In this document: one piece after another, positions 3,148 through 45,978 of the stretch
Position numbering within the stretch: position 1 is the stretch's first letter
Layout: each line of letters starts with the position of its first letter
Origin: an uncultured Clostridia bacterium
GTDB taxonomy: Bacteria > Bacillota > Clostridia > Christensenellales > Borkfalkiaceae
Length of the DNA: 64,000 nucleotides
Direction of reading: 5' to 3'
Assembly (NCBI GenBank): GCA_947631905.1
Contig: CANRND010000007.1
Span: 16,077-80,076 of the forward strand
Position numbers and translations under genes: made by a program
Notes under the pieces: model-generated
Told to the model about the DNA's origin: nothing
What the model saw: only the letters and a program-made list of their open reading frames with translations
The model's database searches: none

Positions 3148-4827
3148 TCAAAGCCATTTGAGATTGTTGACAAGCACATCCCCCTCGCCTAAAAAGACGA
3201 CCGAGACCGCCTGCGAAAAATCGGGGAGGGATGCGCCCGTCTCCGATTTGAAGTCGGTGCATTTCAAAAGGAAGTTCTTCCATCTGCCGCCCGCGGGGAC
3301 GTCTCCGCGGAAGAGATACCCCTTCTTTTCGTCTGCGTCCATATAAAAGACGATGTTGAGCGCGCCGCCCGCCGCGCAGTAAGCGTCGAACTGGAAGCTC
3401 GCGCCCTCCTCGGGCTGGAAGCGGGGTTCGCTCACGCGGTAACTGATCACGCCGTTTACGGTATTCACGCCCACGATACCGCCGTAGCCCTCCGCAAGTT
3501 TTACGTCCGAACGGGCGCCGTCGGCAAAGCAATCGGCAACAGAGCTGGCGCGGCGGCGGAAACTCGCCACGCCCGCAACGCCCTCCGAACCCGCATAAAG
3601 AATGCGGCTTTTGAGGCAGGCGTTACGGTAGGGTTTTTTCAGGCTGACTTCCTGTATCTTGGACGTGACGGAAAAGCCGTTGGAATAGCGCACAAAGGTA
3701 TAAACGAGTACTTTTTGGCTCTTTTCGTACACTTCGAGCGGAAACACGACCGAACTATCTTTCATGTCGCGGAGATTGCCCATGACTCTCGTCCAGTCGC
3801 GCGCGCGGAAGCTGTCCGTCTTTTCCGAGAAGAAGATGCCGCATTCGATGGGATCGCCCTCTATATCGTAATTGCCGCGCACTTTGAGGTTCTCCTCTTC
3901 GTCGAATACCGTAAAGCCGATGGGCTTGCTGATATAAACCGCCCTGCCGCGCAGATATTTGTCGAGGAACATGTCCATATCCACGAACGAGTGTTGGCCG
4001 ATGAGTCCGTTCCCGTGCGCGGAATAGAGGATCGCCTTTTCCACCTCGGGATTGATCTGCTGGAAAGTGTCGTAAACGCGGTCGTAATTGCACTTTTTAT
4101 CGTTGATCGCCGAAAGCATCAAAACGGGGCATGCCGCGCGGGGGGCGTAGCTCTGCGAATCCAGGCCTGCGATAAAGCGGTGGCGTTCGGGATCGAAGCT
4201 CTTCTTCTCCCCGTCGCCGAATTTTTCCATATCGCGGTAGGCGAGCCAGCCCGCCGCGCACACGGCGATAAAGCAGGAAAGAGAGGCGTAAGGCGTGATC
4301 TTCCACAGCACTTCGCCGCCCGTTCTCAGCCCGATCGCGCCAAACGAAGTCACTTCTTTTTTGCTCTTTAAGTATTGCGCGGCATAGCGCGCCACCGCCG
4401 CCCACTCGTACCAGCTCGTCTCCTTTGCGGTGTTGTCGGCATATTCCATCGCCCTGCCCGCCCGCAGATAGTTCGCATAGTCGATGTCGCGGGGGTAGAT
4501 GGTGTGCCTGCCCTCTCCCATGTCTCCGCAGTAATCGACGCACAGCACGCCGTAGCCGAGTTCCACGAAATGGGAGACGAACTTTTCGTCGCACGGAAGC
4601 CCCGCCTCGAATAAAACCATTACGGCGGGATAGCTCTCCGCGCCTTTCGGGACATAGTATTTCGCGTATACTTTCACTCTGCCGTATACGCATTTCCTGC
4701 CCAGAAAGTAGACTTCGCGGAAGATACAGTTTTCCCGTTCCTCTTCCGAGAGGATCTCCTCGCAGAGGGGCAACGTGTCGTCGAAGTCCTTCCAAAGGGT
4801 GACGGGGGTGAGAATCGAATTTGCCAA
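3148..4827 (-). CDS. Alpha/beta-hydrolase-like protein with C-terminal beta domain, nucleophile missing
   Basis: 559 residues from a TTG start at 4827 with Shine-Dalgarno GAGG. Residues of about 55-310 look like an alpha/beta hydrolase of the acetyl-xylan-esterase/dienelactone-hydrolase type: YPAVMVLFEAG, then GYGVLCVDYCGDMGEG, the nucleophile-elbow region FGAIGLRTGGE, an acid-loop candidate SAINDKK and a late His in YSAHGNGLIG. The elbow should read G-x-S-x-G-G but has Arg (about residue 168) where the Ser belongs, so ordinary esterase chemistry is unlikely. The C-terminal 230 or so residues are beta-rich and may be a carbohydrate- or protein-binding module. No signal peptide is evident. It lies 9 bp after sbcC and upstream of lepB. 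Confidence 0.65.
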   Translation of the reverse strand: MANSILTPVTLWKDFDDTLPLCEEILSEEERENCIFREVYFLGRKCVYGRVKVYAKYYVPKGAESYPAVMVLFEAGLPCDEKFVSHFVELGYGVLCVDYCGDMGEGRHTIYPRDIDYANYLRAGRAMEYADNTAKETSWYEWAAVARYAAQYLKSKKEVTSFGAIGLRTGGEVLWKITPYASLSCFIAVCAAGWLAYRDMEKFGDGEKKSFDPERHRFIAGLDSQSYAPRAACPVLMLSAINDKKCNYDRVYDTFQQINPEVEKAILYSAHGNGLIGQHSFVDMDMFLDKYLRGRAVYISKPIGFTVFDEEENLKVRGNYDIEGDPIECGIFFSEKTDSFRARDWTRVMGNLRDMKDSSVVFPLEVYEKSQKVLVYTFVRYSNGFSVTSKIQEVSLKKPYRNACLKSRILYAGSEGVAGVASFRRRASSVADCFADGARSDVKLAEGYGGIVGVNTVNGVISYRVSEPRFQPEEGASFQFDAYCAAGGALNIVFYMDADEKKGYLFRGDVPAGGRWKNFLLKCTDFKSETGASLPDFSQAVSVVFLGEGDVLVNNLKWL

Positions 4828-43368: not shown

Positions 43369-44772
43369 TTATGCCGCAAGAGGGAGCGGAGCCGAAACGC
43401 GGGGAGAAAACTTTTTGCGCATGACCCCCGCGAGCATGACAAACGAGACCGCCGCCGTGAGGGCTTCGGCAATGGGAAACGCCCACCAGACGAGTTCGGC
43501 CGCGTCCGGCGCGAGGGTAAACAGCCAGACGGCGGGAAAGACGAACACCGCGAGCCGCAGGCAGGAGATAAGCAGAGGAAAGAACGCATACCCGAGCGCC
43601 TGCAACACGCCCTGCACGGCGATACTCAATGCCATAAAGACATATCCGATACTTGCGATCCGCACGGCGAGCGCGACGGTGCGGATGAGCGCTTCGCCGC
43701 CCTCCCCGCTCGCCATGCCGAAGAGGTGCGCGAGCGGCGACGCCAAACTTTCGAAGAGCGCCGTAATGACCGCCGCCGCGGCGACCGTGAACAGGATCCC
43801 CCACTTGATACATGCGCGGGAGCGGGCTTCGTCCCCCATGCCGAAGTTGTAGGAAAGCACGGAGATGATGGTGTTGGAAAGCCCGAAACAGGCGAACAGC
43901 GCGAACTGCATGATCTTATAATATACGCCGAAACTCCCTTGAAGAAGAGAGGCGTTTTCCGCCGTGCCGAGAATGAGATTTACGCCGAGCATCATCACCG
44001 AGAGCATGCCTTGCATGAGCGCCGCCGAAAGCCCGATGTGATAAATTTCCTTGATGATCTTCCCGCTCGGAACGAGCGCTTTCAGACGGTTGCCAAGCTC
44101 TTTGTTGGCCAAATAATGGAAGAGCATGGCGACAGCAAGAGACAAGATCTGCCCGATGACCGTTGCCCACGCCGCGCCCGCAACGCCCATGCGGAGAGGG
44201 TAAATGAACACATAGTCGAGCAAAATATTCGCCGCCGCGCCCGAAATTTGGGAGACCGTGGAAAACATCGTCTTGCCCGTACTCTGTAAAAAGCGTTCGT
44301 AGATCGTAAAGCCGATCGCGCCGAACGAGAAACAGCAGCAGATCGTGAGATATTCCGCCCCCATTTCGGCGACCCGTTCATTCCCCCGCGCCTGCATGGC
44401 GATAAACGGCTTTGCGCCGAACAGCCCGAAAAGAAGAAAGACGAGATAGATGACAAGCCCCAAAAAGATGCCGTTTCCCACCGTTCTGTCCGCCTTTTCG
44501 CGGTCGTTTTCGCCGAGGGACTTGGAGAGCAACGCGTTCAGCCCGACGCCCGTTCCCACGCCGACGGCAATGATCAAAAGCTGGATGGGAAAGGCATAGG
44601 TGAGCGCGAGATTGCCCAAAGCGCCCTCTTCGCCCATGTTGATGACGAACGCTGTGTCCACGATGTTATAGACGGCTTGCAGGATCATGGAGACGATCAT
44701 GGGAAGCCCCATCCCGAGGATGAGTCTGCCGACAGGCGCCGACGACATCTTGTTTTGTTTGATTTCTTTCAT
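43369..44772 (-). CDS. MATE-family multidrug/sodium exporter
   Basis: 467 residues from ATG 44772 (GAGGT upstream). Twelve predicted TM helices in two similar halves. The N terminus PVGRLILGMGLPMIVSMILQ and the LYNIVDTAFV-type segment (AVYNIVDTAFVINMGEEGAL) are typical of the MATE/NorM-DinF superfamily, which exports cationic drugs or metabolites with Na+ or H+. The reading frame is open 44 codons further upstream, and an in-frame ATG at 44841 starts a 23-codon leader that runs through a terminator into this gene. The substrate is unknown. Confidence 0.93.
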   Translation of the reverse strand: MKEIKQNKMSSAPVGRLILGMGLPMIVSMILQAVYNIVDTAFVINMGEEGALGNLALTYAFPIQLLIIAVGVGTGVGLNALLSKSLGENDREKADRTVGNGIFLGLVIYLVFLLFGLFGAKPFIAMQARGNERVAEMGAEYLTICCCFSFGAIGFTIYERFLQSTGKTMFSTVSQISGAAANILLDYVFIYPLRMGVAGAAWATVIGQILSLAVAMLFHYLANKELGNRLKALVPSGKIIKEIYHIGLSAALMQGMLSVMMLGVNLILGTAENASLLQGSFGVYYKIMQFALFACFGLSNTIISVLSYNFGMGDEARSRACIKWGILFTVAAAAVITALFESLASPLAHLFGMASGEGGEALIRTVALAVRIASIGYVFMALSIAVQGVLQALGYAFFPLLISCLRLAVFVFPAVWLFTLAPDAAELVWWAFPIAEALTAAVSFVMLAGVMRKKFSPRVSAPLPLAA

Positions 44773-44795
44773 AATATACCTCTTTTTGCACAAAA

Positions 44796-44829
44796 AAAGG
44801 GCGCAAACCCAACTGGATTTACGCCCTTT
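44796..44829 (-). terminator. Intrinsic terminator inside the MATE 5' leader (candidate attenuator)
   Basis: Minus-strand stem AAAGGGCGTAAATCC/GGGTTTGCGCCCTTT with loop AGTT and a following T7. It lies between the promoter's +1 (about 44844) and the MATE Shine-Dalgarno, so it would stop transcription before the gene unless overridden. Confidence 0.85.
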
Positions 44830-44838
44830 CAAGCTACG

Positions 44839-44879
44839 CATTGTAAGAATATTATATGAAATTTTTCGGAAAAAGTCAA
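44839..44879 (-). promoter_or_regulatory. Sigma-A promoter of the MATE gene with near-leaderless leader ORF
   Basis: Minus strand TTGACT (44879-44874), 17 nt, TATAAT (44856-44851). Nine nt later is ATG (44841), opening MRSLKGRKSSWVCALFLCKK in frame with MATE. Confidence 0.8.
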
Positions 44880-44888
44880 CCGAATTTA

Positions 44889-44922
44889 CGCGGGCGGCGG
44901 GCAATTTTTTCCGCCGCCCGCG
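44889..44922. other. GC-rich hairpin after the 163-residue paralogue gene
   Basis: CGCGGGCGGCGG/CCGCCGCCCGCG around a 10-nt loop, upstream of the MATE promoter. It may end transcription of the 44980-45471 gene, although no U-tract follows on that strand. Confidence 0.5.
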
Positions 44923-44979: not shown

Positions 44980-45471
44980 TCACGGACGGAAGACAAGTTC
45001 CAGATCGGTTTCCAAAATGGAACAATCGATCGTGTCCGCACCCGTTTCATCGGGGAAATACACAAGCCAACTTCCGTAACTCTTTTCCGGTTCGAGGATC
45101 GTCCCGACCATCCCTTTATGCACCCCGAATTTTGCATAGTTCTCTTTTTCGACCAACACTTTCACAGAGTCGTATTCCCGCAGATGTGTTTCCGTAAATC
45201 TTGTCTTTTTTGTGGGGTCTTGCGTTTTGAACCATTCCGCCGTGTCCAAAGCAGTCTCTTTGCAGTACGGTTTCCGGTAATATTCCAAATCGTCATTTCC
45301 CACCCATGCGAACGCATAATCTCCGAGGTCTTCCCGATTATAAAATATCACAAGACTGCGCTCCTCTCCCGTTTTCATGACCGTACCGAAACACCCCTTG
45401 TGAATGCCGCACTCTGCAAGCTCTTTCACTTCGTTTTTTAAGTGAATATCGTCTAATTCTTCCAGTTTCAT
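44980..45471 (-). CDS. DUF4926/KOW-like protein, tandem paralogue 2
   Basis: 163 residues with Shine-Dalgarno GGGGTGA. Two short beta-barrel-like halves repeat the pattern 'x-HKG-x-G-T': CGIHKGCFGTVMKTGEERSL and FGVHKGMVGTILEPEKSYGS, reminiscent of the small SH3/KOW-like DUF4926 domain, joined by an acidic, Tyr-rich linker. It is about 70% like the gene just upstream by eye and ends identically (ETDLELVFRP). No signal peptide. The function is unknown; DUF4926 proteins often sit in toxin or immunity neighbourhoods, but no toxin is visible here. Confidence 0.65.
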   Translation of the reverse strand: MKLEELDDIHLKNEVKELAECGIHKGCFGTVMKTGEERSLVIFYNREDLGDYAFAWVGNDDLEYYRKPYCKETALDTAEWFKTQDPTKKTRFTETHLREYDSVKVLVEKENYAKFGVHKGMVGTILEPEKSYGSWLVYFPDETGADTIDCSILETDLELVFRP

Positions 45472-45489: not shown

Positions 45490-45978
45490 TCACGGACGGA
45501 AGACAAGTTCCAGATCGGTTTCCGATATGGGACAGTCGATCGTATCCGCTCCCGTTTCATCGGGAAAAAATACAAGCCAACGCCCCTCGATCTTCTGCGG
45601 ATCGAGGATCGTCCCGACCATGTCTTTATGTACCCCGAATTTTGCGTAGTTCTCTTTTTCGACCAATACTTTCACCGAGTCATATTCCCGAAGATGTGTT
45701 TCTTCAAAACGAAGTTTTTTTGTGAAATCTTCGGTCGCCATTTTTTGCATCATCTCTTTTTTGATGTGATCGAGCAACTTTCTGTAATATTCAAGATCGT
45801 CATTATTCGCCCATGCGTAGGCATAATCCCCGAGATCTTCGGGATTATAAAAAAGGACAAGGCTTCGTTTTTCGCCCAATTTTATGATGACGCCCCTGCA
45901 ACCCTTGTGAATGCCGCACGCCGCAAGTTCTTCCACTTCGCGTTTCAAATGAACGCCGTCATACTCTTCCAATTCCAT
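45490..45978 (-). CDS. DUF4926/KOW-like protein, tandem paralogue 1
   Basis: 162 residues from ATG 45978 (GGGGGTGG upstream); the ORF-track start would overlap the hydrolase gene. It has the same two-half design as its neighbour: CGIHKGCRGVIIKLGEKRSL and FGVHKDMVGTILDPQKIEGR, with the acidic WANNDDLEYYRKLL linker. It differs most in the linker (IKKEMMQKMATEDF against KETALDTAEWFKTQ). It lies 18 bp from the second copy, so the pair arose by tandem duplication and is co-transcribed, probably from the upstream hydrolase promoter. Confidence 0.65.
   Translation of the reverse strand: MELEEYDGVHLKREVEELAACGIHKGCRGVIIKLGEKRSLVLFYNPEDLGDYAYAWANNDDLEYYRKLLDHIKKEMMQKMATEDFTKKLRFEETHLREYDSVKVLVEKENYAKFGVHKDMVGTILDPQKIEGRWLVFFPDETGADTIDCPISETDLELVFRP

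Follow-up and report, generated by a model that had tools for sequence, protein, structure and literature searches.

The leader of a MATE family efflux transporter gene, recovered in a window of 64 kb (the whole stretch of DNA analysed) from an uncultured Clostridia bacterium, contains two mutually exclusive conserved folds, with covariation and a fixed promoter and gene context. It is likely a compact cis-acting ON switch in which an aptamer fold competes with a terminator, with a small molecule as candidate signal. Judged from sequence, the leader is best read as representing a candidate new class of ON riboswitch that overlaps its terminator and responds to a compound which these pumps handle. 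With somewhat less assurance, we favour the broader view that such ~36-nt RNAs form a new riboswitch class, which senses drugs or toxins, has its aptamer overlapping the terminator and activates MATE, MFS and DUF2798 genes of gut Bacillota. In this view, another MATE gene in this genome bears a sister class of RNA (core GUAAAUCUGAUYACGGUAC) that may respond to another compound. We infer the direction of control, a small-molecule signal, and export of that signal or a related toxin by the pumps.

Architecture of the MATE leader

The regulated gene encodes a MATE family efflux transporter of 467 aa (43369..44772; PF01554, E 1.8e-28; TIGR00797 above cut-off). Its predicted promoter (44851..44879) consists of a -35 hexamer TTGACT (44879-44874), a 17-nt spacer and a -10 hexamer TATAAT (44856-44851), and matches 11 of 12 consensus positions. 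The near-consensus promoter reported in a preliminary description of this DNA was thus borne out, as was the exporter Shine-Dalgarno, recognized in the sequence as AGAGG (44779..44783) ahead of the start ATG (44772-44770). From the predicted +1 at ~44843, transcription would enter a predicted intrinsic terminator, P2 (44792..44830), with a stem of 16 bp (44830-44815/44810-44795) including two G.U pairs, a loop AGUU and a U tract (44798-44792). P2 has a predicted energy of ~-25 kcal/mol, and equal stability was reached in 0 of 200 shuffles. The strong terminator of the preliminary description therefore stands, but its "15-bp stem plus T7" does not: the full stem has 16 bp, and four of the seven T lie inside the stem and had been counted twice. 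A leader ORF of 23 codons (MRSLKGRKSSWVCALFLCKKRYI; 44773..44841, ATG 44841-44839) runs in frame with the MATE gene. Promoter, terminator, Shine-Dalgarno and leader ORF are all on the minus strand, as are the exporter gene and the elements of the second fold.

This second, aptamer-like fold (44809..44844) starts with a helix, P0, recognized by pairing and covariation, in which the 5' strand CAAU (44840..44843) pairs with GUUG (44813-44810). P0 leads into an internal loop with the conserved box GNGYN, here GCGUA (44835..44839), on the 5' side and the strand GUAARUCCR, here GUAAAUCCA (44814..44822), on the 3' side, the latter also being part of the terminator 5' arm. The P1 hairpin GCUU-GAAA-GGGC (44823..44834) has counterparts in 64 leaders. 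Covariance model R2 matches the whole fold with 39.1 bits (E 1e-7); this is its sole match in the 64 kb, the window being among the 50 sequences from which the model was built.

Between the promoter and the upstream gene lies a very GC-rich 12-bp inverted repeat (44891-44922) that lacks a minus-strand U tract. Further upstream, two adjacent minus-strand genes (44980-45471 and 45490-45978) encode similar proteins of ~163 aa each that have no Pfam match and apparently arose by tandem duplication.

Conservation and covariation of two exclusive folds

The genome that holds the window, 60 related genomes and named public genomes supplied the orthologues; the nearest of the public genomes are MAGs of uncultured Clostridia, several of which bear the label Lapin. 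Statistics on P0, P1, the box and the leader ATG refer to 64 distinct leaders, terminator covariation was calculated on an alignment of 40 leaders (A1), and P0/P1 covariation on an alignment of 50 sequences (A2). A loose IUPAC pattern applied to 399 genomes matched about as often as the reversed control and was dropped in favour of covariance models. The first of these, R1, holds the terminator pairs only, without P0; its matches with E >1e-4 were mostly ordinary terminators (e.g. L131, L132, L135, L136, L150).

The leaders share a pattern of GNGYN box, short variable stretch, GUAARUCC, loop, complementary arm and U tract, which is kept even where exporter identity is only ~45%. The box begins with G in 63 of 64 leaders, has G as third base in all 64 and U (58) or C (6) as fourth; GUAA and CC of GUAARUCCR are invariant (64/64) and followed by R. 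P0 pairs the bases just 5' of GNGYN with those just 3' of GUAARUCCR over 3-4 bp. Its pairs 1-3 are formed in 63, 63 and 62 of 64 leaders (188 of 192 cells), compared with 58, 39 and 61 in the best of 2000 shuffles and with 39-98 of 192 cells in slid controls. In the P1 hairpin, which is closed by the variable stretch, the first two pairs are formed in 64/64 leaders as CG, UA and UG types, and the third in 39 of 57 (24.7 by shuffle).

Taken together in A2, 92.9% of P0 and P1 cells are paired (71.7% by shuffle), two-sided changes occur in 90 cells (28.3 by shuffle) and affect 7/7 pairs, and covariation is 0.620 compared with 0.259 by shuffle and 0.036-0.130 in slid controls. The P0 pair of columns 4 and 38 is formed in 50/50 sequences, as UA (17), AU (16), GC (11), CG (5) and GU (1). 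In a held-out test, 12 distant leaders found by the P0-blind model R1 formed 35 of 36 P0 pairs; shuffling gave a mean of 25.6 and a maximum of 32, with 0 of 5000 shuffles reaching 35. The terminator is itself conserved as structure: 96.6% of P2 cells in A1 are paired and 44 show two-sided changes (0/500 shuffles), with a wealth of G.U pairs that includes U.G in 24/40 and 20/40 leaders at two positions.

Because the GUAARUCC arm is nearly invariant while its partner strand in the terminator varies, this arm has a second duty. It is reused, with the 3' arm of P1, as the terminator 5' arm; P0/P1 and the terminator need the same strand and thus cannot coexist. L221, L073 and similar members have another terminator, which pairs with the GNGYN side and still destroys the aptamer-like fold. 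In most of the 64 relatives, the end of the best -10 hexamer is 7-14 nt 5' of the box G, and mostly 9-11 nt, a spacing which implies that the RNA begins at or just before P0.

Proposed mechanism

RNA polymerase would start at the 5' strand of P0, and the emerging P1 and GUAARUCC strand would then allow the P0, internal loop and P1 fold to form. Without signal, this weak fold would yield to the terminator hairpin and transcription would stop ~50 nt in, leaving the exporter OFF by default. Stabilization of the aptamer fold by a signal, for which a small molecule seated in the invariant internal loop is the likeliest candidate, would block the terminator and permit transcription of the exporter (ON). 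The aptamer-like fold has a predicted energy of -1.7 kcal/mol and the terminator one of ~-25 kcal/mol, and the latter is predicted to dominate only beyond ~42-48 nt of transcript; together these values point to a default OFF state with a short window for ligand-held read-through. Two features of P0 speak against the proposal: the helix has only 3-4 bp, and it is not what energy minimization predicts for the RNA alone.

A leader shared by non-homologous genes commonly indicates a riboswitch. The leader combines features by which riboswitches are recognized, namely an aptamer-like structure with covariation, strands common to aptamer and expression platform (GUAARUCC and the P1 3' arm), and a consistent sense position before several non-homologous gene families. 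If a ligand does bind, the element would rank with the smaller riboswitches of the terminator type, and the ligand would indicate what several unassigned multidrug exporters naturally transport. Gut bacteria would, moreover, possess an RNA-based means of sensing a xenobiotic or a compound resembling an antibiotic.

Distribution and gene context

The MATE orthologue occurs in 14 of 61 related genomes, and the motif (E<=1e-4) was found in exactly the same 14. A search of these genomes also placed the element before a MATE gene of another subfamily (L117), and R1 and R2 searches of the wider phylum retrieved MATE genes of other subfamilies with the element (L142, L144, L147, L234). As judged by Pfam for some downstream genes and by sequence likeness for the remainder, the element precedes, in sense orientation, non-homologous families comprising MATE transporters, MFS transporters (L140, L141, L143, L145, L148, L225, L232), DUF2798 membrane proteins (L152, L185, L237) and CarD-like proteins or regulators (L221, L227, L236). 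The R2 match L233 and copy L146 have no obvious target gene directly downstream. Locus L059, whose contig bears the label Treponema, has the element twice in its variant form, at L059:1912 and L059:3445; one copy lies before a MATE gene, the other ahead of a short ORF, after which an HPr-like protein is encoded. A second conserved block, AUAUGGUURUGGCAGCUUUCCGAAAAAGUCUCC, lies between terminator and MATE start in L053, L058, L060, L063, L064 and L069-L077. Its UCUCC is complementary to a GGAGG Shine-Dalgarno and it is not a conserved ORF (the ATG is absent in L063), and a possible role is translational control on top of the switch.

The genome has another MATE gene (L002 = L253), whose longer, very conserved leader contains the companion motif ACGACACAYGUDGCGC..GCGCGUAAAUCUGAUYACGGUAC (G000:C23:22673-22691) and a long terminator. 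The companion motif is carried by loci L238-L255, and its core was found in 17 of 90 searched relatives and also in Lachnospiraceae. Loci L075 (companion at 3549) and L076 (3537) contain both motif versions, each before its own MATE gene. From its sequence, the companion looks like a sister class, possibly of other specificity.

Alternative explanations

The same RNA switch might be operated by a protein, an antiterminator or anti-antiterminator that binds the fold in place of a small molecule, which we consider unlikely although it is the strongest of the alternatives. CarD-like regulators are among the associated genes, and hairpin-binding antiterminators occur in these phyla. This internal loop, however, is found again in distant families whose genes differ, an unsystematic look revealed no regulator gene shared by the loci, and the many strictly conserved unpaired bases in a very short RNA suit a ligand pocket at least equally well.

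That the element belongs to the guanidine-IV riboswitches (mepA/GGAM-1), or varies only slightly from them, is distinctly improbable. Guanidine-IV, in role the nearest known class, also precedes MATE genes, acts as a terminator ON switch and has a pairing strand followed by GAGUA (PMC7736828), and guanidine-IV and Gd4v share with the present element the terminator expression platform and the occurrence in Bacillota and gut bacteria (PMC7736828, PMC9788692). Guanidine-IV spans ~92-95 nt, and a loop-loop pseudoknot connects its two hairpins (PMC7736828, PMC9788692), whereas the element described here is a single nested stem of ~36 nt, and an RNA that starts at about P0 leaves no space for another hairpin. 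Guanidine-IV is found mostly on SMR (sugE) genes and Gd4v on transaminase genes; 30 SMR loci tested gave no R2 match and only chance-level R1 matches. Four SMR leaders that are guanidine-IV-like by eye (L190, L195, L198, L212) matched neither R2 nor Rfam.

A shade less probable still is that a ribosome which stalls within the leader ORF of 23 codons relieves termination ahead of the exporter, as envisaged in the preliminary description, where the leader was proposed to be a translation-coupled attenuator. The ORF is present as described, ~3 nt after the expected start, in frame with the MATE gene and overlapping the hairpin, and the fusion is open in seven more leaders, mostly of close relatives. 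Conservation strongly supports the conditional read-through of the terminator in this proposal but not the stalled ribosome as its sensor. Of the 64 related leaders, 18 have a leader ATG, and the frame is open into the gene in 8, which have a nearly identical leader peptide except for L043; the ten remaining ones stop within 3-58 codons, among them L115, whose genome is closely related and belongs to the same genus. The hairpin, which covaries in 40 leaders, is conserved in relatives, but frame and length of the leader peptide are not; it is RNA pairing that is kept and not codons. Since the leader ATG lies ~3 nt from the expected transcription start, there can be no Shine-Dalgarno before it, and the ATG itself is composed of the end of the P0 strand (..AU; here ..AAU) and the conserved box G. 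The leader ORF is a by-product, although it may be translated in this species. P0, P1 and the internal-loop bases are kept across unrelated genes, which argues that the sensor is, most likely, the RNA fold itself.

The long inverted repeat directly after the promoter could also be read as conserved operator DNA or as a constitutive promoter-proximal terminator without signal, a reading that is largely refuted by covariation and has next to no probability, given that the G.U-rich P2 would be mismatched in DNA and that the P0/P1 covariation and invariant loop bases would be left unexplained. Ribosomal RNA mimicry, an idea based on a GUAGCGAAA...GUAAGU string that we take to be 23S-like, was dropped because the P1 bases involved covary.

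Comparison with known systems

No Rfam 15 family matched the element at gathering score, a result that is weak alone since the guanidine-IV-like leaders are likewise unmatched; matches at 44798-44832 (Atu_C9, trpB, others) were below gathering scores and were rejected as generic terminator hairpins. The motif was not described in the open-access literature searched, with the 2017 list of 224 candidate RNAs and subscription papers outside that search. The riboswitch-like fold is widespread and apparently undescribed.

Leader-peptide attenuators of antibiotic-resistance genes resemble the MATE leader in having a promoter, a terminator and an ORF in the leader, and differ in that here the RNA fold is conserved and the ORF is not. 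The yjdF (azaaromatic) riboswitch (RF01764) senses toxic aromatic compounds and occurs in the same 3-kb loci as the element in L221 (2638-2736, minus strand) and L227 (1289-1386, minus strand), near the element-bearing CarD-like genes; it is ~100 nt long, has another fold and lies on the opposite strand. This neighbourhood is a hint that the ligand could be an aromatic toxin. In logic, the closest analogue of the proposed switch is the HMP-PP riboswitch (thiS motif), which has a terminator-embedded aptamer (PMC7266159). The thiS motif controls thiamin genes, and the leader described here is unmatched in Rfam 15. In both, the aptamer overlaps the terminator within a very short leader, and the ligand has to bind, or in our candidate would have to bind, before the terminator is completed (PMC7266159).
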